48,436 nt of DNA from a virus. The stretch covers positions 1 to 48,436 of the IMG/VR virus record IMGVR_UViG_3300022200_000073; one strand, given 5' to 3'. The position numbers were made by a program, and so were the translations under genes. Under the pieces are notes generated by a model. It was not told the DNA's origin and searched no databases. It worked only from the letters and a program-made list of their open reading frames with translations. The number at the start of each line of letters is the position of its first letter. The first letter of the stretch is position 1. This document shows, one piece after another, positions 9,162-48,170 of this stretch.

Positions 9162-9162
9162 T

Positions 9163-9402: not shown

Positions 9403-9404
9403 AA

Positions 9405-9569
9405 CTAATCTATTAACTTTTTATAGTGATTGATAAGCTTCTCCATCTTAGATGTATAGTAATCCTCAAATTCCTCGAACCCCTCTGAATCTTGTTGGAA
9501 AATTTTGTAGAATGTCCCCCTCAGTCTTTCTGAAGGGGTCTTTAATTTTGGTTTAACTGTTCTACTCAT
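9405..9569 (-). CDS. Hypothetical protein, 54 residues
   Basis: Starts MSRTVKPKLKTPSERLRGT and ends in an amphipathic helix rich in Lys and acidic residues. It fills the gap between its neighbours with 2 and 10 bases to spare, in the operon direction. No family recognised. Confidence 0.65.
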   Translation of the reverse strand: MSRTVKPKLKTPSERLRGTFYKIFQQDSEGFEEFEDYYTSKMEKLINHYKKLID

Positions 9570-9579
9570 AATTTTTAAT

Positions 9580-11200: not shown

Positions 11201-11203
11201 AAT

Positions 11204-11377
11204 TTATTCTATTGTTAATTGTTTGTAATAATTCTTCTCCTTCAGATAGGTCTTAACCTCATCTGGATAACTGTCCTCCTCAATTGACTGAGGTACAGAT
11301 ACTGTCTTTGTGATGTGATCCACCACAAAAATATATCCATCTTTCCTAAAGTATAACCTTGGCTCCTTAGACGGCAT
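11204..11377 (-). CDS. Hypothetical protein, 57 residues
   Basis: ATG start at 11377 (MPSKEPRLYFRKDGYIF), overlapping the end of the metallophosphoesterase gene by 11 bases. A GTG seven codons further upstream is possible but less likely. Not recognised. Confidence 0.6.
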   Translation of the reverse strand: MPSKEPRLYFRKDGYIFVVDHITKTVSVPQSIEEDSYPDEVKTYLKEKNYYKQLTIE

Positions 11378-12605: not shown

Positions 12606-12759
12606 TTGAATCCTTTATAATTAAACTTAATTCTTCGATCATACTACTGGCTATTTTATTAACCTCTTCCATAGTACCATCCATCCTTGCTTCATAAAGC
12701 TCTGCTACGTTGTTGTGCATTTTTTCTGAGCTACTGAAAATTTCATTACTTGTTGCCAT
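12595..12759 (-). CDS. Small helical protein, 54 residues
   Basis: MATSNEIFSSSEKMHNNVAE..., ending SLIIKDSNAS; predicted all-helical and acidic. Start overlaps the endonuclease end by 14 bases, and its end overlaps the metallophosphoesterase start by 11 bases. Function unknown. Confidence 0.65.
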   Translation of the reverse strand: MATSNEIFSSSEKMHNNVAELYEARMDGTMEEVNKIASSMIEELSLIIKDSNAS

Positions 12760-13216
12760 ATCCTTTTTCTTTTAAAATATTAATTACTTGTGTACAATCC
12801 TCTTTGTTTGTTGGTTTAAAAATTAAGGGTTTTGGGGTCATTTCTTTAGACCTCTCCTTAAATAACTTCCATCGAATAGAAAAACTCTCGTTTGCCCTAC
12901 CCTTCACTTCTATAAACCAAGCCTCATCTTTACCGATGAAGTCTGGTGTGTAGCTAACCTTGGTGACCTTCCTTCGGTCAATCATTTGCTTGCTTCTCTT
13001 GGTAGCCCTCTCCCAACATTCCTCTTCTAACTCAAAGGGGTCAAATGTTTGGTAACTTCTTCCCTCGTATTCAAATTTGATACCCTCCTTCTTGAGCATC
13101 TTGTACATGACAGACTCCAATGTTGAGGCAAACTGAATCCCATCCACAGTTACCTTCTTAGCTTGGACTATCTTACGACCCACTCTGGGTTTCTTATTCT
13201 TCACTTCTATCGCCAT
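12746..13216 (-). CDS. PD-(D/E)XK endonuclease, DUF1064 / endonuclease I-like
   Basis: 156 residues. Seen: FASTLESVMYKMLKKEGIKF supplies the first acidic residue; SYTPDFIGKDEAWFIEVKGR is a clear PD-x(n)-ExK active site; SIRWKLFKERS follows. Phage proteins of this size and pattern act as Holliday-junction or branched-DNA endonucleases, as T7 endonuclease I does, next to the DNA polymerase. The exact substrate is inferred from context. Confidence 0.82.
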   Translation of the reverse strand: MAIEVKNKKPRVGRKIVQAKKVTVDGIQFASTLESVMYKMLKKEGIKFEYEGRSYQTFDPFELEEECWERATKRSKQMIDRRKVTKVSYTPDFIGKDEAWFIEVKGRANESFSIRWKLFKERSKEMTPKPLIFKPTNKEDCTQVINILKEKGYGNK

Positions 13217-13589
13217 ATTTATCCTTTAAGAATTGTTTCATTATTAGTACATAATCGAGTAGGTCATCCCCCTCTTTAGAGAATGCCTTTATTGCGGACT
13301 CTATATAATCTCTGCCCTCGGAGATTGATAACCAATCCATAAAGTCATCATAGTTCATATCCTTAACAATCTCCCTAGGGTTTATTGTATCTGTATATTC
13401 CTTTTTGATGTCTTTAACAACGTCTATCTCTTTAGCTTCAGCTATTACAGTAACCCAAGGCATATTGTCCTCTTCGTATGACCTAATAGCTTCCTCCAAG
13501 TTACTTGCACTTACATAACCCACAAAGTAATTAGTGTCTAGGCCTGTCCTAGGAGATTTTGCGTAAACCATTGCTGTGTATATATTCAT
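13194..13589 (-). CDS. Hypothetical protein, 131 residues
   Basis: Not recognised. The first 55 residues (MNIYTAMVYAKSP... VTVIAEAKE) look like an alpha/beta fold; the remainder is acidic and helical. Overlaps the endonuclease start by 23 bases. Confidence 0.65.
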   Translation of the reverse strand: MNIYTAMVYAKSPRTGLDTNYFVGYVSASNLEEAIRSYEEDNMPWVTVIAEAKEIDVVKDIKKEYTDTINPREIVKDMNYDDFMDWLSISEGRDYIESAIKAFSKEGDDLLDYVLIMKQFLKDKYGDRSEE

Positions 13590-13592
13590 ATT

Positions 13593-13769
13593 TTAAAGTT
13601 TTAGTGTTTCTTTAAGATCTGCCCTTACACTTGGGTCTCTCAAACCCTCAAGACATTGCTCTAACCAATCAGTCCCGTATTTCTCTGTCATAGAATCCTC
13701 TATCCATTTTTTACCACATATAGTCTTGTGATCAAAGAGGAAACTCCAAATTGCTTTTAGTGTTTTCAT
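13593..13769 (-). CDS. Hypothetical protein, 58 residues
   Basis: MKTLKAIWSFLFDHKTICG... ending LKETLKL. It fills the gap between the DNA polymerase and the 131-residue gene, 3 bases before the latter. Predicted helical with two cysteines. Unknown function. Confidence 0.65.
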   Translation of the reverse strand: MKTLKAIWSFLFDHKTICGKKWIEDSMTEKYGTDWLEQCLEGLRDPSVRADLKETLKL

Positions 13770-13793
13770 TTTGTTTGTGTTAAAGTTAATATC

Positions 13794-16058
13794 TTAATGT
13801 ATTTCTGCATAATTGTTACCAAACTGCACGTCTATGTCCAGTTCTCTATTCAAACCTAATCCCTCATTAGTGCTTTGTATAGCACTTTTTAAGAACTTTT
13901 CACAACCCTCTCTGTGACCCTTAGGTAAGCATATAATTATTTCATCATGCATTTGACCAGTGAGTTGTGGTCTCTTATCCCTAAAAGTTTTTATCCAAGT
14001 GTCAAAAGCAAATACCCCTGTCCCTTGGTTTAAGGTTGAAAAAATATCCTTGGGGTATCTCAATGAATACCACAACCTACTAACAGGGTTCCATAACCAA
14101 AGCTCCTCAGCTTTACTTGCTAGATCATACTTCTTACGTCTGGTAGATTTACTATCCTCATCTTGTGGTAGCAAGTCTCTACCTTTATACAGTTTGTAGG
14201 TTAACTGACCATTACCTAACTTGTAGAAGAACTTAACCATCTGATCTGCTGATACAGCCTTGATTGACCAGTTTACTTTCCAGTAAGCTTTATGGAGATC
14301 AAAACCTGCTTCCTCTGGTATATCTGCAGCATCTGCTATTGCCTTTCCACCAGCCCCATAAGTTGCCGAGTAGTTTGTAGTCTTACCCTTCTGTCTCTCA
14401 AAGTTTAACTCCTCAAACCTACCGGACTGCTCAGGTGTTTTATCCTCATCAGTCTTCTTATACCACTTATAAAAGTCTGCATCCTCCTCGGTCATAAATC
14501 CAGCTTGAACTGCAATAGCCAAGTGTGGATCATAACTCTTATCCATCATAGTCTCTACATACTCTGGGTCATAGGGGTAGATATAATGGTCACGGGTTCT
14601 GTTTTCTAGTGCACTCATATCTGAGCCACATAGTTCATAACCCTCCGGAGCTATCAAAACCCCCCTAACCAGTTCTCCATAGGGTTTATCCACTGAGGGG
14701 AGGTTAACAACCGTTCTGTGCTTGAACCTCAAGGTGTTAGTAAACCCTTGTATCTGGGCTTGGATATAACCATCTGCATCCACATTACTCATGTATCCAT
14801 TAAGGATAGCAATCCTATGCGTTAATACAGTTAGACCCTCCATGACCTCTAACCTAGGTTCAACCTTTAAAAGCTTCTTAACAGAAGGACATAATTCCTT
14901 ACCATCCTTACCATCAACTCTAACTTGCGGTATACTATCAATATAATCCTTACCATCCTCATCTTTCTTTTTAACCTTCTTAAAACTCTCTGGAATCCAA
15001 CCAAGGCTAGACAACCAATCCTTCATTTGAGAAGAGCTTTTTGGGTTACCCTTCTCTACACTAGCCACCACTTCTACATCATCTGGGTGAGACTCTTTTA
15101 ACCCTAAAGATTGAACCGCCTCTAGCCAAGCAATTGCTCTAGATGAAAGCTCATTAGATGGTATATGTACGACTGAGACTTGATTAGGGTTTAAACCTTG
15201 AGCATCACAAGCTGTTTTAAACTTGAGTCCACTTGCTGAGAGCTTACCATTTGCTTTAATGTAAGTCTTAGGTTTCTTCAGGTTATTACCCTTGAGGTAC
15301 ATACTGTCGGGTTTTTTAACAGCCTTCATCTTAACTGACTCTGGCATTATGTTACTCAACTCCTCAACCTTATCTGCCTCTTCTGTTTCCAGTTTATCAA
15401 GAGCCAGTAAGCACCTAGGTACATCCAACTTCCACCTACTCCTTTCAGCTTCTACAGCACAATCCATTTTAAACATCAGGTAATTAATAAGTCTTTGAAC
15501 TCCCTCTTCGTCCTCGTAGATCCTCATTAGATCCTTCATCTCCTTGTCATAGAGCTTACAGTTTATCTTAACGTCCTCACTACAACGGTGTAACATCTTA
15601 TCTTGAAACTGTTTAAAGGTTTCATTAGGTAGTGGAGACTTCCACTCACCCTCAGTGATCTTTGGTTTTGGTATACCGAAGTAAACACCCCAGTCATCCA
15701 AACCATGTCTCTGTTGCTTACCTACACCATTAGGGTATAAATACCAAGACAATGCCAGAGTGTCTATAACCTTACAAGATACTCTGTGAGGTGTTAACTT
15801 ACCAGAGTCTATATCTCTTCTGTGTAGTAGGCTATCCTCGTAACCATCGTATAATATCCTCTCAACTACAGGAATATCCCAGAGTGAAATATTGTGTCCA
15901 ATAATAACGTCAGCGTTATCAAAGAACTTCCTCATCTGATCGTAATCGGTAGTTGACTTATGTTTCCACTCTCCTTGAGAGTAGATAGCAGCCACCAAGC
16001 AATGTATCTTGGTGGGATCTAAGTCATCTGCTTCCACATCAAATACGCATATTCGCAT
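13794..16058 (-). CDS. Family A DNA polymerase, T7-like
   Basis: 754 residues. The N-terminal proofreading exonuclease has FDVEADDLD (exo I), VIIGHNISLWDIP (exo II) and CSEDVKINCKLY (exo III). The polymerase core has NTLRFKHRTVVNLPS, motif A LCGSDMSALENR, motif B GKTTNYSATYGAGGK and motif C QMHDEIIICLP, where HDE holds the catalytic Asp. All catalytic residues are present. It lacks a 5' nuclease domain, as in T7, whose polymerase is about 700 residues. Replicates the phage genome with the PrimPol-helicase and SSB of the same operon. Begins 2 bases after the groEL stop, so the two share a transcript. Confidence 0.95.
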   Translation of the reverse strand: MRICVFDVEADDLDPTKIHCLVAAIYSQGEWKHKSTTDYDQMRKFFDNADVIIGHNISLWDIPVVERILYDGYEDSLLHRRDIDSGKLTPHRVSCKVIDTLALSWYLYPNGVGKQQRHGLDDWGVYFGIPKPKITEGEWKSPLPNETFKQFQDKMLHRCSEDVKINCKLYDKEMKDLMRIYEDEEGVQRLINYLMFKMDCAVEAERSRWKLDVPRCLLALDKLETEEADKVEELSNIMPESVKMKAVKKPDSMYLKGNNLKKPKTYIKANGKLSASGLKFKTACDAQGLNPNQVSVVHIPSNELSSRAIAWLEAVQSLGLKESHPDDVEVVASVEKGNPKSSSQMKDWLSSLGWIPESFKKVKKKDEDGKDYIDSIPQVRVDGKDGKELCPSVKKLLKVEPRLEVMEGLTVLTHRIAILNGYMSNVDADGYIQAQIQGFTNTLRFKHRTVVNLPSVDKPYGELVRGVLIAPEGYELCGSDMSALENRTRDHYIYPYDPEYVETMMDKSYDPHLAIAVQAGFMTEEDADFYKWYKKTDEDKTPEQSGRFEELNFERQKGKTTNYSATYGAGGKAIADAADIPEEAGFDLHKAYWKVNWSIKAVSADQMVKFFYKLGNGQLTYKLYKGRDLLPQDEDSKSTRRKKYDLASKAEELWLWNPVSRLWYSLRYPKDIFSTLNQGTGVFAFDTWIKTFRDKRPQLTGQMHDEIIICLPKGHREGCEKFLKSAIQSTNEGLGLNRELDIDVQFGNNYAEIH

Positions 16059-16059
16059 A

Positions 16060-17685
<1,626 letters not shown>

Positions 17686-17702
17686 TTATTTTAATTGATT
17701 TG

Positions 17703-17734
17703 CAAATGTAAATAGAAAAAGGGACTCTCGCAAG
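17703..17734 (-). promoter_or_regulatory. Promoter of groEL
   Basis: Minus strand CTTG (17731-17734), 20-base spacer, TACATTTG (17703-17710): a good Bacteroidota promoter. Transcription would begin near 17696, about 17 bases before the groEL ATG. The -33 box lies inside the loop of the preceding terminator. Confidence 0.75.
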
Positions 17735-17741
17735 TCCCTTT
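17718..17741 (-). terminator. Terminator after nrdAB
   Basis: AAGGGACT and AGTCCCTT form an 8-bp stem around a 6-base loop, followed on the minus strand by a T-run. It ends the ribonucleotide reductase transcript before groEL. Confidence 0.85.
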
Positions 17742-17775
17742 AGGTTTATTTTTAATTATTTTTTAATTTTAATTG

Positions 17776-19440
17776 CTACCCCTCACAACTAGAGCAAGTT
17801 AATAAATTCTTTTTAAACTCCCTAGCAGCGTTTACATTGTGCTGGTAGTATAAAGACTTAACACCAAGCTTTGCAGCTGTCAAGTAAAGACTATTTATAT
17901 CCTTGGTAGGAGTATTGGGGTGTATCATCAGGTTCAATGATTGAGACTGACAGATAAACCTCTGCCTTTGTGCAGCCTGCTGAACAATAGACAACTGACT
18001 AATCTCTAGATAAGTTTTGAAAACATCTTTCTGATCATCTGTTAAGAAGTCTAAGTGCTGAACAGATCCATCTTTATCTAATATAGACTTCCATACAGTA
18101 TCTGTATCCTTACCTAAACCTTTTAGTATCTCCTTTAAAAAGGGGTTCTTATAAGTTGTCTTACTCTTTGCTAAATCCTTAACAAAGTAATTAGACAATA
18201 TAGGTTCAATACCTTGAGATACCTCTCCTAGTATAAAGGAGGAGGACTTTGTGGGTGCGATAGCTATCAAGGTGGTATTTCTCCTTCCGTATCCTTCTAA
18301 TACATCTGGCTCTCCTAACTCCTGTCCCATTATCCTAGATGCTGTGTAAGCTTTATTCCTTATTATAGAAAAAGACTCTGCATTAATCATCATTGCATCA
18401 TAGGAATCAAAAGGTAGGGACTTAGATTGTAGTAAGGAGTGCCAACCTAGAACACCTAGACCTAAAGCACGGTGCCTTTTTGCAAATCTGTGTGCTCTTT
18501 CCATAAAGGGTAACCCCTCAGTTTTAACTATAAACTCCTCCATAACAGCATCTAAGAAGTAGGTAAGAATTTCAACAGCATCTGTATCTCTCCACTCATA
18601 GTAGTGAAGCATATTCATAGAGGATAGGCAACAGACAAAGGACTCTTCCTCACTTGAAGGCAGCATGATTTCAGAACATAAATTACTGGCGTGTATTGTC
18701 AAGCCCTTATCCTTGTAAACATCCACAGTATTCTCATTTACGTTATCCTTAAACATGATATATGGAGAGCCTATTTCAGACCTACACTGTATTACCTTAG
18801 CCCAGATTTTTCTTTTAGTATGGTCTCCTTCCTCCATTTCCCTCAACCAATCATTTCCAACACATAGTCCGTACATCATTAGTTGTATAGGGTTACCTTC
18901 CATCTGTATTTGTAACCACTCCTCTATGTCATCATGCTCAATATCAATATACCCAGCGAATTGACCTCTTCTTGTAGAACCTTGACTTATCACATCTATA
19001 ACTGTGTCGAATACCTTAAGGAAAGGGAAACTACCATTGCTTAATCCATTATTAGATATGCTACTACCTCTTGGTCTTATCTTACCAAAGTAACCAGAGG
19101 TTCCACCTCCATACTTTGACATCATCCCTACCTCTGCTGAGGTATAAAGAATAGACTTTGTCTCATCCGATATGTAGGAACCAAAGCAAGAGATGGGTAA
19201 GCCTCTATCTAAACCAAAGTTAGACCAAACTGGGGATGCTAGGGAGTAATAACCCTTAGACATATAATCTAAAAACTTCCCCTCAAAATTATCTACAAAG
19301 GGTAAGTGTTTGGATGCTGCCTTGGCTATATCCTTTATCCTATCTTCTGGTGATTGATCATTTACTAAGTAACCTCTACTTAAAAATTGTCTGCTTTTAT
19401 CTGTTAGCCAAGCATAAGGCTGTTGTTTTTGTTCTCTCAT
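17776..19440 (-). CDS. nrdA: Ribonucleotide reductase class I, large subunit
   Basis: 554 residues, shorter than bacterial NrdA because the N-terminal ATP-cone is absent; this is common in phages and implies no dATP inhibition. Active-site features: the GLPISCFGSY cysteine, NLCSEIMLP (the Asn, Cys, Glu triad), the second redox cysteine in SFVCCLSSMN, and LYYQHNV with the tyrosine pair that passes the radical. The C-terminus LLTCSSCEG carries the CxxC that takes electrons from a thiol carrier. It reduces ribonucleotides to deoxyribonucleotides. Its start codon is one base from the nrdB stop. Confidence 0.95.
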   Translation of the reverse strand: MREQKQQPYAWLTDKSRQFLSRGYLVNDQSPEDRIKDIAKAASKHLPFVDNFEGKFLDYMSKGYYSLASPVWSNFGLDRGLPISCFGSYISDETKSILYTSAEVGMMSKYGGGTSGYFGKIRPRGSSISNNGLSNGSFPFLKVFDTVIDVISQGSTRRGQFAGYIDIEHDDIEEWLQIQMEGNPIQLMMYGLCVGNDWLREMEEGDHTKRKIWAKVIQCRSEIGSPYIMFKDNVNENTVDVYKDKGLTIHASNLCSEIMLPSSEEESFVCCLSSMNMLHYYEWRDTDAVEILTYFLDAVMEEFIVKTEGLPFMERAHRFAKRHRALGLGVLGWHSLLQSKSLPFDSYDAMMINAESFSIIRNKAYTASRIMGQELGEPDVLEGYGRRNTTLIAIAPTKSSSFILGEVSQGIEPILSNYFVKDLAKSKTTYKNPFLKEILKGLGKDTDTVWKSILDKDGSVQHLDFLTDDQKDVFKTYLEISQLSIVQQAAQRQRFICQSQSLNLMIHPNTPTKDINSLYLTAAKLGVKSLYYQHNVNAAREFKKNLLTCSSCEG

Positions 19441-20417
19441 TAAAATAAATCGTTCTCTGTTATACTCTTCGCTTTCTTTGTGTAGTTGGTGGATCTCTTG
19501 TTGAAGAAATCCCCCTCTGTTGTACTATTTAACTCCTCATTAAACCATTGGGTTTCTAGTAACATTGACTCATCTACCTCAAATAGTGGATCTATCTCAA
19601 GGCTTTCCATAGAGTTGTTGAATCGGTCTCGAATAAAATTCTTTACTACATCTTTAGACATAAACTCTAGGTCACCCTCTTCAAAGATCCAATCTAGAAT
19701 CTTAGTTTCAGCTCTCTCTGCTTTAGCACAAGCCCTCTTGATTTCCTCTTTAAACTCCTCATCAAACCAATCGGGGTTCTCTTGCTTTATTATGTTTACT
19801 ATAGCTAAACCAAACTTTCCGTGGCTGTCCTCCTCTTGAAATGTAGCTGAGACAATGTTAGATATTCCTTTGAACATATTCTTGTGCCTATTAAAGGATA
19901 TCATAATAAGGAACTGACTGAATAATGAAACGTGCTCTATAAAAACTGAGAACAGTAGTACAGACAGGGCGTACTTCTTATTATCCCTACTCTTAGACCC
20001 TACAAGGTATTTATCCAAGTAGTTTATCCTGTCAATAATAGCAGGGATTTCATTTATAGAGTTAAAGTCATCGTTTAGACCCAGTATTTCTAATAGATGA
20101 CTATATGCATCAGCGTGTCTCACTTCACTCTCGGCAAAAGTCATCCCTACAGCACCAATCTCCGGTTTAGGCATCCTATCGTGGATCTTACCCCAGAAGG
20201 ACTTAAAGGATACCTCTATCTGAGATATCGCAAGCATTGTCTTTCGTATTACAGATTTCTCAATATCAGTTGTGTTAATTTTAAAGTCTTGGACATCCGA
20301 TGTCAGGTTATACTCTGTGTGTATCCAATAAGAATGACGAATTGCATCCTTGTACTCTAGTAGTTCTGGATACTCATAAGGTTTTAGGTTTACTCTTTTC
20401 TCAAATATGTCTGGCAT
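19440..20417 (-). CDS. nrdB: Ribonucleotide reductase class Ia, small subunit
   Basis: 325 residues. Metal-ligand motifs: ESEVRHADAY, which has Glu, His at +3 and the radical Tyr at +7 as in E. coli Glu115-His118-Tyr122; FIEHVSLFSQF; and QEEDSHGKF with the distal Glu and His. The radical tyrosine makes this class Ia. The C-terminal tail ending NDLF would bind the large subunit. The leader contains a hairpin that looks like a terminator. Confidence 0.95.
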   Translation of the reverse strand: MPDIFEKRVNLKPYEYPELLEYKDAIRHSYWIHTEYNLTSDVQDFKINTTDIEKSVIRKTMLAISQIEVSFKSFWGKIHDRMPKPEIGAVGMTFAESEVRHADAYSHLLEILGLNDDFNSINEIPAIIDRINYLDKYLVGSKSRDNKKYALSVLLFSVFIEHVSLFSQFLIMISFNRHKNMFKGISNIVSATFQEEDSHGKFGLAIVNIIKQENPDWFDEEFKEEIKRACAKAERAETKILDWIFEEGDLEFMSKDVVKNFIRDRFNNSMESLEIDPLFEVDESMLLETQWFNEELNSTTEGDFFNKRSTNYTKKAKSITENDLF

Positions 20418-26073: not shown

Positions 26074-26126
26074 ACTACAACTTTGCATAAGGCACATTAA
26101 AACGATGCCTTATACCTTTGTTAGCA
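26074..26126 (-). repeat. attC-like palindrome A
   Basis: Short imperfect palindrome with TACAAC at one end and GTTAGCA at the other. The inner arms ATAAGGCA (26087-26094) and TGCCTTAT (26106-26113) pair perfectly around an 11-base loop. The stop codon of the 77-residue gene lies inside the arm, as is common in integron cassettes. The same core recurs at 29150-29198. Confidence 0.65.
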
Positions 26127-27831: not shown

Positions 27832-27843
27832 ATCTATCTTTGT

Positions 27844-27890
27844 GTAAAGTCAGGGATACCTTTTTCCTGATGTCGGGAATATGGTTATGT
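27844..27890. repeat. 47-bp repeat, copy 1
   Basis: GTAAAGTCAGGGATACC... to ATGGTTATGT, nearly identical to 29196-29242 (one visible difference). It contains a TCAGG / CCTGA hairpin and two related TCAGGGATA / TCGGGAATA blocks. It marks the promoter-side edge of the cassette block. Confidence 0.75.
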
Positions 27891-28107: not shown

Positions 28108-28134
28108 TCATCTTTTTCCAAATACGTTTTTCAT
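28108..28134 (-). pseudogene. Fragment of a YD-repeat gene start
   Basis: Encodes MKNVFGKR and a stop: the conserved first seven residues of the YD-repeat family with the rest missing. Begins at the stop of the intact copy at 28134-28559. Confidence 0.55.
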
Positions 28135-28559
28135 TATTTTTTTATTTTAAATTCTTCGCCTACTATCTTAGTTAGTTCTTCCATAGTGTATTCGGGGATA
28201 TCGAAGCCTCTGGATTCTCCTTCTGAATTTTTAAAGGTTAATTCTTTATCCTTATCATCCCTAGTATATTCATACCAATAACCATTAGAGTTTTTAAAGG
28301 TTAATTCATTACCCTTATCATCGTAGGTTTTTTCATCCCAATAACCATTAGAGAGTTTAACGGTTAATTCATTACCGCTATTATCATAGGTATACTCAGA
28401 CCAATAACCGTTAGAACTTTTAAAGGTTAATTCATTACCTTTATCATCATAGGTTCTTTCACACCAAAAACCGTCAGAATGTGTACGAAATTCATAAACC
28501 AAAACTCCATTTTTATTGTAAAGTTTTAAATCCTCTTCTTTTCCAAATATGTTTTTCAT
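28134..28559 (-). CDS. YD-repeat (RHS-like) small protein, copy 1
   Basis: 141 residues. After MKNIFGKEEDLKLYNKNG it has four repeats of about 20 residues with the pattern YDDKGNELTFKNSNGYW, then a tail IPEYTMEELTKIVGEEFKIKK. The repeats resemble YD/RHS beta-hairpin repeats but are far too few for an RHS shell and no toxin domain follows. Three paralogues lie at 30862-31923. Possible use: a small beta-solenoid binding protein. Confidence 0.75.
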   Translation of the reverse strand: MKNIFGKEEDLKLYNKNGVLVYEFRTHSDGFWCERTYDDKGNELTFKSSNGYWSEYTYDNSGNELTVKLSNGYWDEKTYDDKGNELTFKNSNGYWYEYTRDDKDKELTFKNSEGESRGFDIPEYTMEELTKIVGEEFKIKK

Positions 28560-28571
28560 TTCTTAATTTAA

Positions 28572-28718
28572 TTAATTATTTGTAACACCACCTACAGTTA
28601 ACTTATTTAGTAGGTTCATGTCTGTATCTTGTTGCTTTTCAATCTTTTCCTTCATATTATTGTCCAGTTTTTCACTTAATAAACTGGACACCGTGTAACC
28701 GTAATTGCTCGTCGGCAT
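28572..28718 (-). CDS. Small protein, 48 residues, overlapping gene
   Basis: MPTSNYGYTVSSLLSEKLDN... ending VGGVTNN. AGGA lies just upstream of the ATG. Its first 47 bases overlap the end of the 55-residue gene in another frame. Unknown function. Confidence 0.5.
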   Translation of the reverse strand: MPTSNYGYTVSSLLSEKLDNNMKEKIEKQQDTDMNLLNKLTVGGVTNN

Positions 28719-28839
28719 ATTCCTGCATAATCCTTCCCTCCTCTTCTCTATTTACTAACGCAAGGGATTCCTTCATCTTTGGTCTTGTTGCGTTATCTAT
28801 TGTTTTCTGTCTGAAAAACTCTTTTGCTTCTTTGCTCAT
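28672..28839 (-). CDS. Small protein, 55 residues
   Basis: MSKEAKEFFRQKTIDNATRP..., a hydrophilic helical protein ending GVQFIK. The pair with the overlapping 48-residue gene looks like a compact phage gene pair. Not recognised. Confidence 0.6.
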   Translation of the reverse strand: MSKEAKEFFRQKTIDNATRPKMKESLALVNREEEGRIMQEYADEQLRLHGVQFIK

Positions 28840-28861
28840 ATCGTTTATTGTTTGTTTATGT

Positions 28862-28880
28862 TAACTACAACTTTGATTTG
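28862..28880. repeat. Half attC-like site
   Basis: TTAACTACAACTTTG matches the outer half of attC-like A, but the partner arm is missing. It lies just after the stop of the 66-residue gene, where a full site would be expected. Confidence 0.4.
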
Positions 28881-28886
28881 TATCTA

Positions 28887-29087
28887 CTATGCCAATTCAT
28901 AAGCCTTAAATTCTTTATGAGTTCTAAATGTTAATTTATATTCTTTATTCAAATAATTATTAAATAAATTAACTTGTATTTTACCAGCTTTTAAAATTGT
29001 ATGGTTGTATTTTTTACCATCTACATCTGTAAAAATAACGGTAGTCTTTCCGTTTTTTAATGCCGTTCTAAAATCTTGATTTGTCAT
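28887..29087 (-). CDS. Cassette-type gene: hypothetical protein, 66 residues
   Basis: MTNQDFRTALKNGKTTVIFT..., predicted small beta-rich fold, basic. It lies between attC-like G (upstream) and a half site (downstream), so it is probably also a cassette. No function recognised. Confidence 0.6.
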   Translation of the reverse strand: MTNQDFRTALKNGKTTVIFTDVDGKKYNHTILKAGKIQVNLFNNYLNKEYKLTFRTHKEFKAYELA

Positions 29088-29147
29088 TTCGTTTTAGTTT
29101 AATTTGTAAACTCAAAGGTTTACTTTTGATTTAATTTGTAAACTCAT

Positions 29148-29200
29148 TAGTTAACTTTGTATAAGGCACATTAAAACGATGCCTTATACCTTTGTTGTAA
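29148..29200 (-). repeat. attC-like palindrome G
   Basis: Same core as site A: ATAAGGCA, an 11-base loop and TGCCTTAT, with flanks GTTAACT and TTACAAC. Its loop is identical to that of site A, so the two are recent copies. Directly joined to the second copy of the 47-bp repeat. Confidence 0.65.
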
Positions 29201-29242
29201 AGTCAGGGATACCTTTTTCCTGAGGTCGGGAATATGGTTATG
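29196..29242. repeat. 47-bp repeat, copy 2
   Basis: Nearly identical to 27844-27890, abutting attC-like G. The two copies bracket 28.0-29.1 kb and could recombine to delete it. Confidence 0.75.
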
Positions 29243-29273
29243 TATTTCTCGACCATCTTATAACCGTAAAACG

Positions 29274-29693
29274 TTAGCTGCATAAGAGACTTTTGTATTT
29301 TTTGTACCTCTTATAATACTTTAAGGTAGCCTTAATCTTGTAACCACGATATACACCACCATTCCACATCCTTACAATTTCACCTTCGGTTGGGGCTTTG
29401 TTATAAATCTGTTCATACCTTTTAATCCCAGCTTTAATAGCTAGATTAAATATTTCCTCTGCACATACAACGTTAAACGCATCTTCATGGGTGTAGTCTG
29501 TCTCATAAATTCGGTTGACATCATCTACTGCAATCTCATGTATCTGTAATACTCCATAGGCCTTACCATTATCCCCGATTAAATTAGGTTGATTATTTGT
29601 CTCTACGTGCTTTAGCACAAAGCGTATATCATTTAACTCATAAGAGGTAAAAGGGGATAATAACAAAGTTAAGAAAAGTGTTGTTGTAATCAT
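29274..29693 (-). CDS. Secreted lysozyme/transglycosylase-like protein
   Basis: 139 residues. It begins with a hydrophobic signal-like segment (MITTTLFLTLLLSPFTS). The mature part has HVETNNQPNLIGDNGKAYG followed by VLQIHE, the Glu ... Gly-x-x-Gln-Ile pattern of SLT/goose-type lysozymes, and a late RMWNGGVYRGY motif that fits the same fold. It would cut peptidoglycan in the periplasm. It is far from the lysis genes at 42-44 kb and among early genes, so it might modify the wall early or be a cassette gain. Confidence 0.7.
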   Translation of the reverse strand: MITTTLFLTLLLSPFTSYELNDIRFVLKHVETNNQPNLIGDNGKAYGVLQIHEIAVDDVNRIYETDYTHEDAFNVVCAEEIFNLAIKAGIKRYEQIYNKAPTEGEIVRMWNGGVYRGYKIKATLKYYKRYKKYKSLLCS

Positions 29694-29745
29694 ATTATAT
29701 TTTTTAAGGTTTTTTAATTATGATATTGATAATTGACCATACCTG

Positions 29746-29997
29746 CTACTCTAGTTTTATGTAAGCTCTCCCAGCATCATAGGATATTGAAGAACCCCTA
29801 GAGTAAGAAGTGGTTTCGTCACCTTTTAAGTTCTGGTAGGCATTGCTTAATGCTTTAATTGCTTCCTTTTTGGTATGAAACTCAAGAAGTAAGCTATTAA
29901 ACTGAAGCTTTTTAATGGTGCAATTATAGGCTTGAATGAACGTCCTTAATTTTGATACACTCATATAATGTCCTGCAATTATTATTTTTGTTTTCAT
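29746..29997 (-). CDS. Hypothetical protein, 83 residues
   Basis: MKTKIIIAGHYMSVSKLRTF..., alpha/beta with a repeated-strand feel (LLLEFHTKKEAIKALSNAY). Not recognised. Confidence 0.6.
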   Translation of the reverse strand: MKTKIIIAGHYMSVSKLRTFIQAYNCTIKKLQFNSLLLEFHTKKEAIKALSNAYQNLKGDETTSYSRGSSISYDAGRAYIKLE

Positions 29998-30009
29998 CTA
30001 GAATATTTT

Positions 30010-30183
30010 TTAAGTTGTTTGAGGGTTATCATTTTCTACTGTGTGTACAGAATCAATGCTATACCCTTTGTTTATCATGTAACCGTGCCAGTTGTCGAAG
30101 TGCCTCTCGTCTTTGAAGGTTTTAACAGTTGCGGTCTTCGCTCCGTTTTGTTGCTTATAACCGATTGCTTTAGTTACTGACAT
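30010..30183 (-). CDS. Small protein, 57 residues
   Basis: MSVTKAIGYKQQNGAKTATV..., ending VENDNPQTT. Overlaps the end of the zinc-ribbon gene by 14 bases. The pattern KTFKDERHFDNWHGYMINKGY resembles short phage proteins, but no function is known to me. Confidence 0.6.
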   Translation of the reverse strand: MSVTKAIGYKQQNGAKTATVKTFKDERHFDNWHGYMINKGYSIDSVHTVENDNPQTT

Positions 30184-30823
30184 CATAGTGAGATTTAAGT
30201 AGTTTTGCTACGTCATATTCAAATAATCTCTCTATGTTTGCTTTTATAAACTTAGAGATCTTGTTGAAGGAGTAACCTAATTGATCATTAAGACCTGTTA
30301 AGTTTTGTACCCCTATACCATTACCCCACTCCCATTCAGATGAAGGGGATAACTTGCTGTCATTCCTAAACTTATCCTCATTAGTAAACATCCCTTGACT
30401 GTATAACAAGCCGACTCTACTTTTAAAGTCTCGTGATACACCATCGTTAATTGCGTAGTCTACTTCTAGTAATTGACAACCATAACCAAGGCAACAAAAA
30501 CCTAATGACGGGCTACCTAGTTGTTCTCTACCTTGCTTATACCTAGTCTTGCTTAAGCCATCAATCCACTTGATAGCATTGGCTGCTTTATAGCTTGAGT
30601 CATTATTAAAATCCCACTCAAGGTGAAAGGGTGTTTTACAATCTGTGCAATTCATAACCACAACTTCATTACCCATCTCGGAGTACCCTAAGAAGTTAGT
30701 CTGCTCAAAGGTTTGTAGGTGATGCCTCTGTTGATCAATAGGTTGCTCCTCCCAGTTTTTACAATTGGGGCATGAGACTGATAAATTTCCCCCAAATACT
30801 TCTGTTGTTGTCTTTTTCATCAT
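30170..30823 (-). CDS. Hypothetical protein with zinc-ribbon-like cysteines
   Basis: 217 residues. Two CxxC pairs (SCPNCKN near residue 18 and NCTDCKT near 59) are likely to bind zinc. The C-terminal part has NLTGLNDQLGYSFNKISKF. Start at 30823 overlaps the ancestral end of the YD-repeat gene upstream. No function recognised. Confidence 0.65.
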   Translation of the reverse strand: MMKKTTTEVFGGNLSVSCPNCKNWEEQPIDQQRHHLQTFEQTNFLGYSEMGNEVVVMNCTDCKTPFHLEWDFNNDSSYKAANAIKWIDGLSKTRYKQGREQLGSPSLGFCCLGYGCQLLEVDYAINDGVSRDFKSRVGLLYSQGMFTNEDKFRNDSKLSPSSEWEWGNGIGVQNLTGLNDQLGYSFNKISKFIKANIERLFEYDVAKLLKSHYDVSN

Positions 30824-30861
30824 TTCTTTATTTTAAATTCTTCCCCTACTATCTTAGTTAG

Positions 30862-31182
30862 TTATTTAATTGTGTACTTGGGTATGTTGTAAGTTCTGCT
30901 TACTCCTTTAGAACTTTTATGGGTTAGTTCATTACCCTTATCATCGTATGTACACTCAGACCAATTACCTTCAGAGGATTTAAAAGTTAATCTATTGCAG
31001 TTATCGTCATAGGTGCTTTCACGCCAATCACCATCAGAATGTTTAAAAGTTAATTCATTACCATTATCATCATAGGTGCTTTCATACCAATCACCATTAG
31101 AACTTTTATAAAATTTATATACTAAATCACCTTTCTTATTATAGAGTTTTAAATCCTCTTGTTTACCTTGTAAGTTTTTCAT
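30862..31182 (-). CDS. YD-repeat protein, copy 2, shortened by an in-frame stop
   Basis: 106 residues with three YDD-x-GNELT repeats. It ends IPKYTIK where relatives read IPEYTMEELTKIV. Reading through the TAA gives LTKIVGEEFKIKK down to about 30822, exactly the family tail, so a nonsense change removed 13 residues. It overlaps the next copy by 4 bases. Confidence 0.75.
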   Translation of the reverse strand: MKNLQGKQEDLKLYNKKGDLVYKFYKSSNGDWYESTYDDNGNELTFKHSDGDWRESTYDDNCNRLTFKSSEGNWSECTYDDKGNELTHKSSKGVSRTYNIPKYTIK

Positions 31183-31541
31183 AATTTCTTTATCTTAAAG
31201 TTACCTAGTTTTGCTACTAGTTCTTCCATTGTGTATTCTGGGATACCAAAACCTCTTGATACTCCGTTAGAATCTTTAAAAGTTAATTCCTTCCCTTTAT
31301 CGTCACGAGTGTATTCACCAAAATAACCATCAGAATTTTCATAGGTTAATTTATTCCCTTGATCGTCGTATGTGTATTCATACCGATACCCACTAGAATT
31401 TTTGTAGGTTAATTCATTTTCCCTATCGTCGTAGGTGCTTTCACAGCAATAACCATCAGAATTCCTATAAAAATTATATACCAAAACCCCTTTCTTATTG
31501 TAAAATTCTAAATTCTTCTTTTTTCCTAATATGTTTTTCAT
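31179..31541 (-). CDS. YD-repeat protein, copy 3
   Basis: 120 residues: MKNILGKKKNLEFYNKKG head, three repeats of about 20 residues (YDDQGNKLTYENSDGYF type), tail IPEYTMEELVAKLGNFKIKKL. Same architecture as copies 1 and 4, diverged at scattered positions. Confidence 0.75.
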   Translation of the reverse strand: MKNILGKKKNLEFYNKKGVLVYNFYRNSDGYCCESTYDDRENELTYKNSSGYRYEYTYDDQGNKLTYENSDGYFGEYTRDDKGKELTFKDSNGVSRGFGIPEYTMEELVAKLGNFKIKKL

Positions 31542-31563
31542 AATGTTTAATTTTAAATGTTAG

Positions 31564-31923
31564 TTAATTTTTAATTTTAAAGTTGCCTAGTTTTTCGGTT
31601 AACTCTTGCATTGTATATTCTGGGATACCAAAACCTCTTGATACTCCGTTAGAATTTTTATAGGTTAATTGATTCCCTTTATCATCATAGGTTCTTTCAA
31701 TCCAATTACCATAAGAGTTTTTAAAGGTTAATTCATTACCCTTATCATCATAGGTACTTTCACCCCAATAGCCATTAGACCTTTTATAGGTTACTCTATT
31801 ACCCTTACCATCGTAAGTTCTTTCACACCAACAACCGTCAGGATCTTTATAAAACTCATACACTAAATCTCCTTTTTCATTGTAAAGTTTTAACTCTTTT
31901 TGTTTTGCAAATACGTTTTTCAT
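31564..31923 (-). CDS. YD-repeat protein, copy 4
   Basis: 119 residues: MKNVFAKQKELKLYNEKG head, three YDDKGNELTFKNSYGNW-type repeats, tail TEKLGNFKIKN. First of the tandem set; the stop of a 14-codon remnant overlaps its start. Confidence 0.75.
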   Translation of the reverse strand: MKNVFAKQKELKLYNEKGDLVYEFYKDPDGCWCERTYDGKGNRVTYKRSNGYWGESTYDDKGNELTFKNSYGNWIERTYDDKGNQLTYKNSNGVSRGFGIPEYTMQELTEKLGNFKIKN

Positions 31924-42679: not shown

Positions 42680-43029
42680 CATTAACATGGATGGTAGCTA
42701 ATTGGACAACAATAGTTATACCCACTATTGTAGGTCTTGTTGGTTATTTAACCGCAAGAAAAAAGAATAAATTAGATCTAGACTCGAAGGAAACAGGTGT
42801 AGCAGGTGAAAAGTGGAAGTTAGCCATAACAATGTTAGACGACAGTACAAAGAGGTTTAAGGATACAATAGATATGATGGAGGAGGACAATGCCTCTTTA
42901 AGGAGACAAAACTTAGAACTTAAGGACTTAGTTTCAACCCTTACGGATAAAGTGGATAGGTTGACTAGGGAGTTAAAGAAATTAGAGAGGTTAGTAAAAA
43001 TGAGGAGTGATGATGCAACTAATCAATAA
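42670..43029 (+). CDS. Membrane-anchored coiled-coil protein (lysis module)
   Basis: 119 residues: one N-terminal span (WTTIVIPTIVGLVGYLTA) followed by a long coiled coil of about 75 residues (RRQNLELKDLVSTLTDKVDR). It lies directly before the endolysin and overlaps it, so holin or inner-membrane spanin are the best guesses. Confidence 0.65.
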   Translation: MEVALTWMVANWTTIVIPTIVGLVGYLTARKKNKLDLDSKETGVAGEKWKLAITMLDDSTKRFKDTIDMMEEDNASLRRQNLELKDLVSTLTDKVDRLTRELKKLERLVKMRSDDATNQ

Positions 43030-43558
43030 ACTTAAAGATCACCCCAATGCAGACTCCATAACGGTAGATAGGATAGCCCAAGTGCATCCTTTTTTAAGAG
43101 AGGCAGTCTATTGCATTTATCTAGAGATATGCGATAAGGTGTCTTCTAAATACGTCAGGGTTAGGTTTAGTGATATCCTCAGAACACTTAAGCAACAGAA
43201 TGAATTGTATAAGCAAGGCCGTAATGGAGATAAAAGGCCTATTGTAACTTGGGTTACAGGGGGTTATTCCTTTCACAATTATGGTCTAGCAATAGATATT
43301 GTACTTATTAGGGATAATGATAAAAATGGTACCTTTGAAAAAGCCAGTTGGGACACTATATTTGATGGAGACCTTGATGGAATAGCTGACTGGACTGAGG
43401 TAGCCGAGATATTTAAAAAATATGAATGGCAATGGGGTTTGATAAACAGTAAAGGAAAGAGGTACGATCTCCCACACTTCCAAAGAAGTTTTGGGTACAA
43501 GACAACACAACTTAAGAGATTACCAAAAGATAGTGAGGGATATCCCATATTACCATGA
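43013..43558 (+). CDS. Endolysin, M15 peptidase
   Basis: 181 residues from ATG 43013, chosen because GGAG lies five bases before it; an ATG one codon earlier is possible. VRFSDILRT, SFHNYGLAIDI (HxxxxxxD zinc ligands) and DLPHFQ (the last ligand His) are the M15 D-Ala-D-Ala carboxypeptidase / L-Ala-D-Glu peptidase signature. It cuts the stem peptide of peptidoglycan at lysis. Confidence 0.9.
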   Translation: MQLINKLKDHPNADSITVDRIAQVHPFLREAVYCIYLEICDKVSSKYVRVRFSDILRTLKQQNELYKQGRNGDKRPIVTWVTGGYSFHNYGLAIDIVLIRDNDKNGTFEKASWDTIFDGDLDGIADWTEVAEIFKKYEWQWGLINSKGKRYDLPHFQRSFGYKTTQLKRLPKDSEGYPILP

Positions 43559-44172: not shown

Positions 44173-45207
44173 ATGGGAAGAATTAATGATACAAGTAAGT
44201 ACCCTCTAGATAATACAGTAACCCTAGATGACTATTTTATCGGTTCAGATATCGATGACAACAATAAGACTAAGACTTACTCTATTAGAGGTTTAGTAAA
44301 CTTGGTGTCAAGTCAAGGGGCAACCAGTACATCTCAATTAGTAAATGATGGAGAGAATGGGGCTGACCCTTTTATAACAGCTAATGATGTACCTGCTGCA
44401 GTAACTAGTACATCTCAACTAGTCAATGACGGAGAGAATGGGATTGACCCTTTTATAACAGCTAATGAAGTTACAACCAGTACATCTCAACTAATCAATA
44501 ACGGAGAGAATGGGACTGACCCTTTTATAACAGCTAATGATGTACCTGCTGGAACATCTTTAGCTGTACAAGACGGAGTGGTTATCGATATAACAGGTCT
44601 TACCGTAGATGGTAAACAGGTAAAACAGATACAAAAGTTAGTAACACCTGCAGATTTAGTTAATAATAAATATAGGGTTTTAAATATGTTTCCCCAAGGG
44701 GCAAATCAGTTTGGTGTTAATCCAGTGGTAGTAGATCACTTTAAGGTAAATGTTTCTCCTACAGAAGTATCCAGAATAGCCTTCAGGGTTTTTATAGAAA
44801 CAGGTAATATACGACTAGAAGTAAACAACCCTATTGGGTTAAGCCAAGTTATATTTAACTATACATTAGAAAGTGGAGCAACGGGGGGACTTTCCTTAAA
44901 CACAGGAGGTATTGCTACTCTAGGTGCAGGACTTACAGGGGAGGATGTGATTATATCAAATTTTACATACAGGGACTCAATAACTAATCAAGTGATAAAC
45001 CCCTCTATAGCAAATGTAACCATAGTTGTAGATAATATACCCACTAATGCTGTAGACACTAACTTTACGTCTATTTATGACCTACCAATAGGTTATTCCT
45101 TAACTGGCTCTGACATAGATGCCTACATAAACGTTTACGGGGAGATAGTACACTTCACTGAACTATTTCAAAATTATATAATAACAATTCAGTTTACAGA
45201 ACTATAA
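44173..45207 (+). CDS. Tail fibre 1
   Basis: 344 residues. The N-terminal anchor MGRINDTSKYPLDNTVTLDD is shared with fibre 2. Then three tandem repeats of about 24-27 residues (TSTSQLVNDGENGADPFITA type), and a beta-rich C-terminal part without recognised domain. The anchor probably docks on the tail and the repeats form a shaft. Confidence 0.75.
   Translation: MGRINDTSKYPLDNTVTLDDYFIGSDIDDNNKTKTYSIRGLVNLVSSQGATSTSQLVNDGENGADPFITANDVPAAVTSTSQLVNDGENGIDPFITANEVTTSTSQLINNGENGTDPFITANDVPAGTSLAVQDGVVIDITGLTVDGKQVKQIQKLVTPADLVNNKYRVLNMFPQGANQFGVNPVVVDHFKVNVSPTEVSRIAFRVFIETGNIRLEVNNPIGLSQVIFNYTLESGATGGLSLNTGGIATLGAGLTGEDVIISNFTYRDSITNQVINPSIANVTIVVDNIPTNAVDTNFTSIYDLPIGYSLTGSDIDAYINVYGEIVHFTELFQNYIITIQFTEL
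44326..44550 (+). repeat. Three tandem repeats of 72-81 bp
   Basis: Each begins AGTACATCTCAA and ends near ACAGCTAATGA; copies start near 44328, 44409 and 44481. Units keep the reading frame, so copy number can change without breaking the fibre. Confidence 0.8.
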
Positions 45208-45254: not shown

Positions 45255-48170
45255 ATGGGAAGAATTAATAATAGAGTTAAGTACCCTATAGACAACATAG
45301 TTACTTTAGATGATTCAGTTATAGGATCAGATTTTGACCAAAATGGTAAGACTAAGAATTACTCTGTACGGGGTATTATAAGTCTTGCTTTGAGTGAAGG
45401 TAACACAAATATAAGTAATGGTGTGTTATCCGGTAGTGTTTATTGGCTACAAGGTCTAGAGTTTGCATCTACAAAAATAGACTACACGTTTAATAATACA
45501 CTCCTTCAATCTGAGAGCCAATCACCTATTGTGCTTAGTCCAGCAGACTTAACTAACGATAGGGTAGATGTGTTTGCCATAGACGCACAAACTAATAAAG
45601 TTGTTGTGGTGGAGGGTATACCTTCTGCAAACCCACAAGAGCCAACAGTTGACTTTATCTACCAGATAAGGTTATCGTCTGTAACCATACCTGCTAATGC
45701 ATCAGCACCTTTAAATTTAGAGACGGTTCAAATCTACGATGAAAACCTAGGTCAACCATCTGAGTGGGATTCTACCTTTGTACAAAATTCAGGGACTATA
45801 AATGTTAATTATCCAGTAGACCCTTCAAAGGGAACTAAGGGAATATTTTTTGACAACATACCAACAGATAATTTAAACAGTATAACATTTACAAATTCAG
45901 ATATAGTTACCCCTTCAAACATAAACTTTGATTTTAAAACTATTAACTTCCAAGGTATTTTGTATATGTCTCTTCTTGACAATTTGGGGGAGCAAGTTTC
46001 AGCTCCTATAACGATATTAAATAACTCGTTTGGGATAGACTTTTTATCAGGGACTTATAACACAGTGTCTATACCAATAACTTCTTTTGGGACTATATCT
46101 GGGGATATCTATGGATTAAGAATAACAGCTTTACCCTTTAAGGAAGGCTATTCTTTCTTAATAGATAACATTTTATTTCAAAAAGGTATTAACACCCCAA
46201 ATCAAGCTAATGACACCTTCTTAGGTTTAACAGATACCTTTAATGATTACTTTAATAGGGGTTTTGAGATACTTAGGGTAAACAAATCTGCTACAGGTAT
46301 AGAATCTGTAAGGTTACAGGATATACTACCTAATGTTGCTCTATCTGGGGAATATGGTGACCTATTAAACACACCACAAAATACATCAAATTTTACTAAT
46401 GATGGTTCTGACGGAGTTAATCCGTTTATTACAAGCAATGATGTAGATGAATCTAAATGGGAAGTGACTGATGGAACAATAAATAATGTGGGTATTGGTA
46501 ATTTAGTAGTACCAACCGAAGTAGAATGGAATGCCGAACGTCTAAGTTGGGGAACCAACGATGCAGCAGGAGCCTTTGCCTCACCTCTTAAATTAACCAT
46601 GTCGGGCTACCGTGACGGTGGCTTTGGTTTGCTCTTCGGTGCTGGTACCGTCGGCTACTATTGGAGCAGTACGGTTATCAGCTCCAATTCGAGAAACCTC
46701 GAATTCACGAGCCCCAGTGCTAGAACGAGCACAGGCAACCGAGTCTTCGGAAACGCTGTCCGTTTAATATTAAATGGAAGTTTTACACAACAAAATTTTA
46801 ATGATAGTTATTTAGGGCAGATAGTAGTTATTGAAGGTTTAACTTACGGTTATGTATATAATTCCATAACTAGTAGAATTTGGTTGGATAAAAACTTGGG
46901 GGCTACACAAGTAGCAACTAGCAGCACCGATGCAAGCTCTTACGGTGATTTATACCAATGGGGTAGAGGAACAGATGGTCATCAGATAAGAACCTCTGGC
47001 ACAACGACTACATTAAGCACTACAGATGTGCCGGGAAATGGCAACTTTATCTTAGACCCAAATCCACCTTATGACTGGCGTAGCCCTCAAAACGATAACC
47101 TTTGGCAACCAGTACAAAAACTAATAGGTAAAGGGGGTTTAAAAGCGTTTTACGGGGATTTACTTAACTTACCAGACTTAAATTCATTGGCTTATTTAAA
47201 AAGTGGTGATAATACCAGTGAGTTAACTAATAATGGTTCCGACGGAGTTAATCCGTTTATTACTTTAAATGATGTTCCAGAAAGAGGGGAACTTGAAAGA
47301 ATAATAGAGGGAACAAATACGGGTTATGCTTTACTTAATGATGATAGGTTGTACAAAGGGGATATTGGAAATAATGCTATTGACTTAACAAAGGCTATTA
47401 ATGGTAATACAAATGGAGCTACTGGTGATTACAGTATATCCACAGGTTTCAATACTACAGCAAGCGGATTCACCTCTTATTCACAAGGTGGCTATACAAT
47501 AGCATCAGGTAATTACTCTAATGCACAAGGCCTTTATACAACAGCATCAGGTGCCTATTCCCATTCACAAGGTATAAATACTTTTGCAAAAAGTGAAGGA
47601 GAACACGCAGGTGGGAAATATACTACAGATTATACCCCCTCAAATGATAGCACAGATAGACTTGTAAACTATGGTAACGGTACCAACGCATTAAACCTTT
47701 CAGATGCTTGGACACTGTATAAAAACGGGGCACATAAGTTTTTCACAGCAACCTTAGCAAGCATTACAAATGCTGTTAAAGGTTTTGTAATGTTAGATCA
47801 AAATGCAAGACTTAATGTACATAATGGTACACAATGGAATGCTTTAGCTTATGTAGATGAAATACCCAGCCTTGAAATAACACAAGTAGCTATTGAAGCT
47901 GACACTACTTTAGATGAATCAACTTATAGGAACGAAATATTTTTTACTCCCCTAGCACCAATTAGTATAGGTATAGACCATACAACACTACTTGATAAAC
48001 ATGAAACCTTTTTTATAAATGAGAGTAATTTTATTGTAACATTTGTACCTAGTTTAAGTGCTTCTACTAATGTTATAGCGGAAGGTGGTTTAATACTAGG
48101 GGGAAGGAGAACAGCTTATTTATCTAGAAAAGGAAATGAAAATAAAATTTATCTAAATATATCTAACTAA
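45255..48170 (+). CDS. Tail fibre 2 with a DGR-type C-type-lectin segment
   Basis: 971 residues. Same anchor as fibre 1 (MGRINNRVKYPIDNIVTLDD). NDGSDGVNPFIT repeats near residues 380 and 660. A C-type-lectin / FGE-like segment at 419-507: VPTEVEWNAERLSW, ASPLKLTMSGYR, GYYWSSTV and NAVRL. Then at 541-617 a second piece, IWLDKNLGATQVATSSTDAS, DLYQWGRGTDG and YDWRSPQNDNLWQ. In the DGR target proteins I recall, that second piece comes before the first. At 728-795 are YadA-head-like repeats (TASGAYSHSQG). It is probably the receptor-binding protein. Confidence 0.8.
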   Translation: MGRINNRVKYPIDNIVTLDDSVIGSDFDQNGKTKNYSVRGIISLALSEGNTNISNGVLSGSVYWLQGLEFASTKIDYTFNNTLLQSESQSPIVLSPADLTNDRVDVFAIDAQTNKVVVVEGIPSANPQEPTVDFIYQIRLSSVTIPANASAPLNLETVQIYDENLGQPSEWDSTFVQNSGTINVNYPVDPSKGTKGIFFDNIPTDNLNSITFTNSDIVTPSNINFDFKTINFQGILYMSLLDNLGEQVSAPITILNNSFGIDFLSGTYNTVSIPITSFGTISGDIYGLRITALPFKEGYSFLIDNILFQKGINTPNQANDTFLGLTDTFNDYFNRGFEILRVNKSATGIESVRLQDILPNVALSGEYGDLLNTPQNTSNFTNDGSDGVNPFITSNDVDESKWEVTDGTINNVGIGNLVVPTEVEWNAERLSWGTNDAAGAFASPLKLTMSGYRDGGFGLLFGAGTVGYYWSSTVISSNSRNLEFTSPSARTSTGNRVFGNAVRLILNGSFTQQNFNDSYLGQIVVIEGLTYGYVYNSITSRIWLDKNLGATQVATSSTDASSYGDLYQWGRGTDGHQIRTSGTTTTLSTTDVPGNGNFILDPNPPYDWRSPQNDNLWQPVQKLIGKGGLKAFYGDLLNLPDLNSLAYLKSGDNTSELTNNGSDGVNPFITLNDVPERGELERIIEGTNTGYALLNDDRLYKGDIGNNAIDLTKAINGNTNGATGDYSISTGFNTTASGFTSYSQGGYTIASGNYSNAQGLYTTASGAYSHSQGINTFAKSEGEHAGGKYTTDYTPSNDSTDRLVNYGNGTNALNLSDAWTLYKNGAHKFFTATLASITNAVKGFVMLDQNARLNVHNGTQWNALAYVDEIPSLEITQVAIEADTTLDESTYRNEIFFTPLAPISIGIDHTTLLDKHETFFINESNFIVTFVPSLSASTNVIAEGGLILGGRRTAYLSRKGNENKIYLNISN
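46600..46765 (+). other. Putative DGR variable region
   Basis: GC-rich island in an AT-rich gene. Codons are mostly NNC or NNT at surface positions (GGC TAC CGT GAC GGT GGC ...), the trace left by adenine-directed mutagenesis of AAC/AAT codons. Conserved landmarks are TATTGGAGCAGTACGG and the closing GCTGTCCGT. No matching template repeat or reverse transcriptase is present in the window. Confidence 0.65.

Follow-up and report, generated by a model that had tools for sequence, protein, structure and literature searches.

The middle of a tail-fibre-like gene in IMGVR_UViG_3300022200_000073, the record of a marine-type bacteriophage, very probably holds a variable region (VR) of the DGR type, judging from its base composition and its alignment with bacterial relatives, and this VR belongs to a C-type-lectin-like domain that is circularly permuted by alignment, with the VR half first and the N-half second. 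The window analysed is the whole record, 48,436 nt, and the following features carry the argument.

1-6216, plus strand: large virion protein, identified by tblastn, which puts the phage near Maribacter phage Panino and Cellulophaga phi46:3
45255-48170, plus strand: tail-fibre-like gene, an open frame of 971 amino acids with the VR in its middle; residues 677-884 match flavophage tail fibre and tail spike proteins
46392-46444, plus strand: fibre repeat TNDGSDGVNPFITSNDV of repeat family D5, ahead of the inserted domain
46512-46601, plus strand: constant part of the C-half of the lectin-like domain (PTEVEWNAERLSW..ASPLKL), homologous to bacterial relatives, with 77% DNA identity and 74% synonymous-codon identity to a gene of Mesohalobacter halotolerans (L023)
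46602-46763, plus strand: probable DGR-type VR, fibre codons 450-503, recognized by a GC and NNC maximum, by codon alignment with two bacterial template repeats (TRs) and by its differences from L023
46764-46859, plus strand: linker from the VR half to the N-half, the new junction of the permuted domain, conserved in a fibre of another phage (L085)
46860-47108, plus strand: N-half of the domain (IWLDKNLGATQVATSSTD..YGDLYQWGRGTDGH..DWRSPQNDNLWQ), following the VR half, recognized by swapped alignment blocks against L023
47223-47275, plus strand: fibre repeat TNNGSDGVNPFITLNDV of repeat family D5, past the inserted domain

A variable region signature in the tail fibre gene

The tail-fibre-like gene lies downstream of an endolysin gene (43007-43558) and a paralogous fibre gene (44173-45207), and the copies of the D5 repeat on either side of the lectin-like domain are 87% identical. 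Farther along the fibre, downstream of the domain, there is a weak Pfam match to YadA-head-like repeats (47420-47630).

The original prediction had described a GC-rich island at 46600-46765 with NNC/NNT-biased codons and YWSS and VRL landmarks. The GC content of the VR core is 0.556 compared with 0.364 for the record; of all 48,274 windows of 162 nt, just 5 have that value or more, each located at the VR. The island is wider than had been proposed, extending into the upstream C-half (46512-46601, GC 0.49) and the N-half (46860-47108, GC 0.44). Both landmarks are present, YYWSS at 46656-46670 and VRL at 46758-46766. The codon bias holds for NNC codons, which make up 48% of the VR, more than in any other of 10,232 windows of 54 codons (mean 14.7%). 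It does not hold as an argument from third-base C or T in general: 76% of VR codons end in C or T compared with 55-56% across the rest of the gene, but this is unspecific because such codons are equally frequent among the addressable and the other codons of the VR (p=0.75). The NNC bias is widespread in the VR domain, including genomes in which no reverse transcriptase (RT) was found, and NNC density was rejected as an RT marker, as it failed to tell bacterial genomes with an RT from those lacking one (p=0.49).

Bacterial DGRs vary the corresponding part of the domain

In three bacterial DGRs (L017, L113 and L110) the TR and VR map to the very portion of this domain that the fibre VR occupies. 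The first of these, from Balneolaceae bacterium ANBcel3 (L017), encodes an RT with IGNLTSQ and YVDD motifs together with an avd-like ORF. The differences between TR and VR fall at TR adenines in 24 of 26 cases in L017, 21 of 21 in L113 and 33 of 35 in L110. The fibre VR was aligned codon by codon with the TRs of L017 and L113, which serve as proxies, its own TR not being in the record; by these proxies a TR residue is kept in the fibre at 6 of 20 AAC/AAT codons versus 25 of 34 other codons (p=0.004). The prediction of a DGR-type VR in the tail fibre is now well supported because of these homologous TR/VR pairs and the pattern of differences from L023 described below.

The VR domain appears, from its relatives and a structural model of one of them, to be C-type-lectin-like and kin to DUF1566 and Fib_succ_major. 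The Fib_succ_major profile (PF09603) and NCBIfam left the domain unmatched in its native order and when reordered to the canonical one, and Pfam and NCBIfam profile searches of the fibre and of the domain yielded nothing useful, also with the halves in canonical order. The kinship rests on direct homology and on a fold search. When genome contigs were searched with the halves in canonical order, at least 405 bacterial relatives of the domain came up, mostly from Bacteroidota, and the best 80 of these at least 405 are 46-62% identical. The peptides for this genome scan were chosen from an alignment whose second row was a consensus sequence; each hit was verified in a tblastn search whose query was made of the window's residues in canonical order. 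Searches of viral_contigs with an exact 24-mer and with single proteins retrieved nothing. The model of L017, a relative with canonical order, has a pLDDT of 95.9, and its top PDB matches are the C-terminal domain of Lcl (probability 0.95, E 0.04) and the fimbrial protein 4eps, followed by C-type lectins with weak E-values; the model of the permuted domain itself has a pLDDT of only 47.6. DUF1566 and Fib_succ_major proteins have been described as DGR targets, with a comparison to 4eps (PMC4159848).

It could be argued that no DGR is involved, and that the fibre displays the ordinary diversity of lectin loops in a gene acquired from a bacterium of higher GC content. Horizontal acquisition alone would give a GC island, and the NNC bias is common in the domain, also in genomes in which no RT was found. 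We consider this the least likely of the explanations weighed here, since GC3 is far lower in the constant portions of the domain (0.33-0.36, compared with 0.61 in the VR), the amino acid divergence and synonymous conservation both peak in the VR, and in the three bacterial TR/VR pairs these positions are TR adenines.

Circular permutation of the lectin-like domain

Against L023 the fibre domain aligns as two swapped blocks, in which window residues 137-223 correspond to residues 27-113 and window residues 1-89 to residues 106-193. Among the relatives, 128 pairs of neighbouring halves run in the order N-C and three in the order C-N (L026, L084 and L085). L026 was rejected as a case of swapped order, as it looks like a tandem domain pair, and L084 and L085 are one sequence across the domain. 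L085 (IMGVR_UViG_3300028413_000010) is a fibre with collagen-like repeats from another phage, and its alignment with the window is colinear throughout, a single block that spans 261 columns at 45% identity, junctions included; the linker reads VDGTFTLAEFQ..VLDAISYGFVYN in the window and LNGSFTQQNFN..VIEGLTYGYVYN in L085. An assembly error is an unlikely source of the permutation because a second phage shares both the order and the junctions. The VR half of L085 lacks the DGR imprint (NNC 0.16), and therefore permuted domains exist without DGR action.

Because the permutation puts the VR half first, the VR lies in the middle of the protein (codons 450-503 of 971) and not at its C terminus. VRs are reported to be nearly always C-terminal, because retrohoming requires cis DNA elements downstream (PMC8144416). 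The 3' end common to the bacterial VRs (VRCxKD) is missing from the fibre, and the permuted junction stands in its place. A strong hairpin like the one past the L017 VR is absent downstream of the fibre VR. A 12-bp AT palindrome (TTTAATATTAAA) at 46763-46774 begins on the last base of the VR; the whole record has just 8 palindromes of this length, and the expected number within 60 nt is about 0.01, although this one was spotted post hoc and is a lead only.

The nearest DNA relative is a bacterial chromosomal gene

Among 396 Flavobacteriales genomes and 27 genomes of the genus of Mesohalobacter halotolerans, the closest DNA relative of the VR is a chromosomal gene of M. halotolerans (L023), 82% identical over 123 nt. 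There are 15 differences in 33 addressable nucleotides and 10 in 69 others (p=0.001, an optimistic value because L023 was chosen as the best hit), which leaves 10 of the 25 differences outside the addressable nucleotides. Amino acid identity to L023 is lowest in the VR, at 52% compared with 68% in the other parts of the domain. Among the residues shared with L023, identical codons account for 81% in the VR (21/26), 74% in the constant C-half and 42% in the N-half (23/55), and the comparison of VR with N-half (p=0.002) is optimistic for the same reason. In synonymous identity of the VR, L023 ranks first of 59 relatives, the median being 50%; the 74% of the constant C-half compares with a median of 43%, and the 42% of the N-half is itself the median. 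M. halotolerans also has a DGR of its own (L111 9208-12066), with an RT, an avd-like ORF and a DUF1566-like target.

A VR that is lowest in amino acid identity and highest in synonymous identity fits the pattern of adenine-directed rewriting. The high value of the constant C-half would also fit if the phage had recently captured the entire C-half from a bacterium, a scenario that the original prediction, borne out as to the VR itself, had not considered, just as it had missed the permutation. In that case the lectin half, already written by a DGR, would have been recombined from a bacterial gene, the A-to-N changes would be bacterial, and the VR would be static in the phage. It would explain why the nearest DNA relative is chromosomal, why high synonymous identity reaches the constant C-half (74%) and stops before the N-half (42%), and why VRCxKD is missing; a permuted homolog without the NNC imprint exists in L085, and the record has neither RT nor TR. 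We nevertheless hold capture to be possible but doubtful. The bacterial composition has been kept in an AT-rich gene, and therefore the capture must have been recent, and the permuted junctions are common to L085 and hence older, so that only part of the domain could have been replaced.

RT and template in the record, in related phages and in potential hosts

In line with the original prediction, RVT_1 has no match in the 48,436-nt record, and an ungapped, adenine-tolerant scan of both strands revealed no TR or near-copy of the VR, the best score being 121/171, equal to background, with 171/171 for the VR against itself. An RT-like motif on the minus strand at about 30.4 kb was rejected, having no RVT_1 support. 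The missing RT and TR say little, because the record is a fragment in which no homologs of terminase, portal or capsid were found and which ends 266 nt past the VR gene; a site elsewhere in the phage or in a host, as had been suggested, is compatible with this outcome. The large virion protein is 43.5% identical to its Maribacter phage Panino counterpart over half of its length and 30% identical to that of Cellulophaga phi46:3 (Pachyviridae), both by tblastn, and the genomes of these phages are 77 kb and 73 kb compared with 48,436 nt for the record. We estimate that about 20-25 kb are missing between 48436 and 1, starting 266 nt past the fibre gene, a placement read from the gene order of Panino.

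The rest of the record has some features of its own. On the minus strand, the phage encodes a polynucleotide kinase, an RNA ligase, GroEL and both ribonucleotide reductase subunits (6761-20417) and, at 28134-31923, clustered paralogous small proteins of YDDKGNELTFKNSNGYW-like repeats, the copies of which have at most 76% DNA identity. Two 98%-identical repeat pairs in or beside short genes are possibly regulatory, one of 48 nt (27843-27890 and 29196-29243) and one of 44 nt with the inverted repeat AAGGCA..TGCCTT inside (26079-26122 and 29153-29196).

Of 23 viral records that have the large virion protein in common, 2 contain RVT_1. RVT_1 was found neither in the complete Panino and phi46:3 genomes nor in three polymerase relatives, nor in eight viral contigs carrying the VR domain. 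Both RT-bearing phages are related to phi46:3 by the large virion protein and have a full DGR.

L153, 7815-9857: complete DGR with three VRs
L154, 2004-9138: complete DGR with three VRs

In each the RT has IGNYLSQ and YADD motifs, the TR lies right before the RT, and one VR is kilobases away from the RT. The VR differences fall at TR adenines in 18/18, 15/15 and 18/18 cases in one phage and in 18/18, 18/18 and 15/15 cases in the other. The targets are small proteins of another kind that share a W..YPWF/FNWF..RLC pattern. The RT of these phages sits among non-structural genes, and the replication region of the record has no RT.

The reading that we prefer, and prefer only tentatively, is that a phage-encoded DGR in the missing part writes the fibre VR. 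It is favoured by the incompleteness of the record and by the full DGRs of two phages with the same large virion protein. Against it stand the other 21 of the 23 records sharing that protein, and Panino and phi46:3, all without RVT_1, as well as the different kind of target in L153 and L154 and the position of their RT among non-structural genes. The mid-gene position of the VR, the lack of a strong downstream hairpin and the replaced 3' end speak against present activity.

Alternatively, the fibre gene might be written in trans during infection, with the template copied into it by a DGR that belongs to the host or to a different phage resident there. Bacterial DGRs that write the same domain exist, the nearest VR sequence is flavobacterial, and RT-remote VRs are known in phages of Bacteroidota (PMC8143477; PMC12629997). 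Even so, action in trans seems unlikely. There was no matching TR in viral_contigs, where a degenerate TR pattern retrieved only poly-A stretches, and none was found by DNA search of the 396 order and 27 genus genomes. The Mesohalobacter RT locus shows no TR for the fibre VR, its own TR looking built for a DUF1566-type gene, and the VR 3' end needed by a bacterial cDNA is replaced by the permuted junction.

Discussion

The demonstrated steps, on which a mechanism can be proposed, are the VR signature, its homology to bacterial TR/VR pairs, the permuted domain order and the lack of an RT and a TR in the fragment. The bases of the VR would be set by copying from an adenine-rich template, in which AAC and AAT codons would give rise to random NNC and NNT codons in the fibre and the remaining bases would be copied faithfully. 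The VR would form the ligand-binding half of the C-type-lectin-like domain in the middle of the fibre and presumably vary receptor binding. We infer an RT and a template that act on the fibre gene, and both may be phage-encoded within the missing 20-25 kb, itself an estimate.

That an internal VR in a permuted fibre lectin is acted on by a DGR, whether that DGR is a phage cassette whose cis elements are coding or a host system working in trans, is a proposal we regard with some doubt. A DGR-type VR placed mid-protein through a permuted lectin would make the C-terminal rule testable. Action on the internal fibre VR by either route, if true, would break that rule, and action in trans would amount to a host DGR rewriting the fibre of its own parasite. 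The phage VR is so closely akin to a gene on a bacterial chromosome as to suggest that bacteria and their phages exchange hypervariable binding modules in ready-made form.

Several known systems resemble the fibre in part. The DGRs of L017, L113 and L110 vary the same part of the domain with adenine-specific differences, but they act on cellular genes, with RT and TR present, and in L017 the order is canonical and the VR C-terminal. L085 has the same permuted domain and junctions in a phage fibre, whereas its VR half lacks the DGR imprint and its fibre context is different. In Bordetella phage BPP-1, unlike the fibre, the VR of Mtd is C-terminal and the RT and TR are adjacent. Mtd is, like the fibre, a DGR-varied receptor-binding tail protein with a C-type-lectin fold (PMC10743442). 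The tentaclins have a DGR-varied phage lectin domain that is likewise not C-terminal; in contrast to the fibre, the lectin is N-terminal and followed by Ig-like domains, and the excerpt consulted describes no permutation (PMC10743442). The Bacuni phages of Bacteroides uniformis have VRs in DUF1566/Fib_succ_major proteins, one of them RT-remote, yet their DGR is complete and phage-encoded, the VR comprises the last 35 residues, and the excerpt consulted reports no permutation (PMC8143477).
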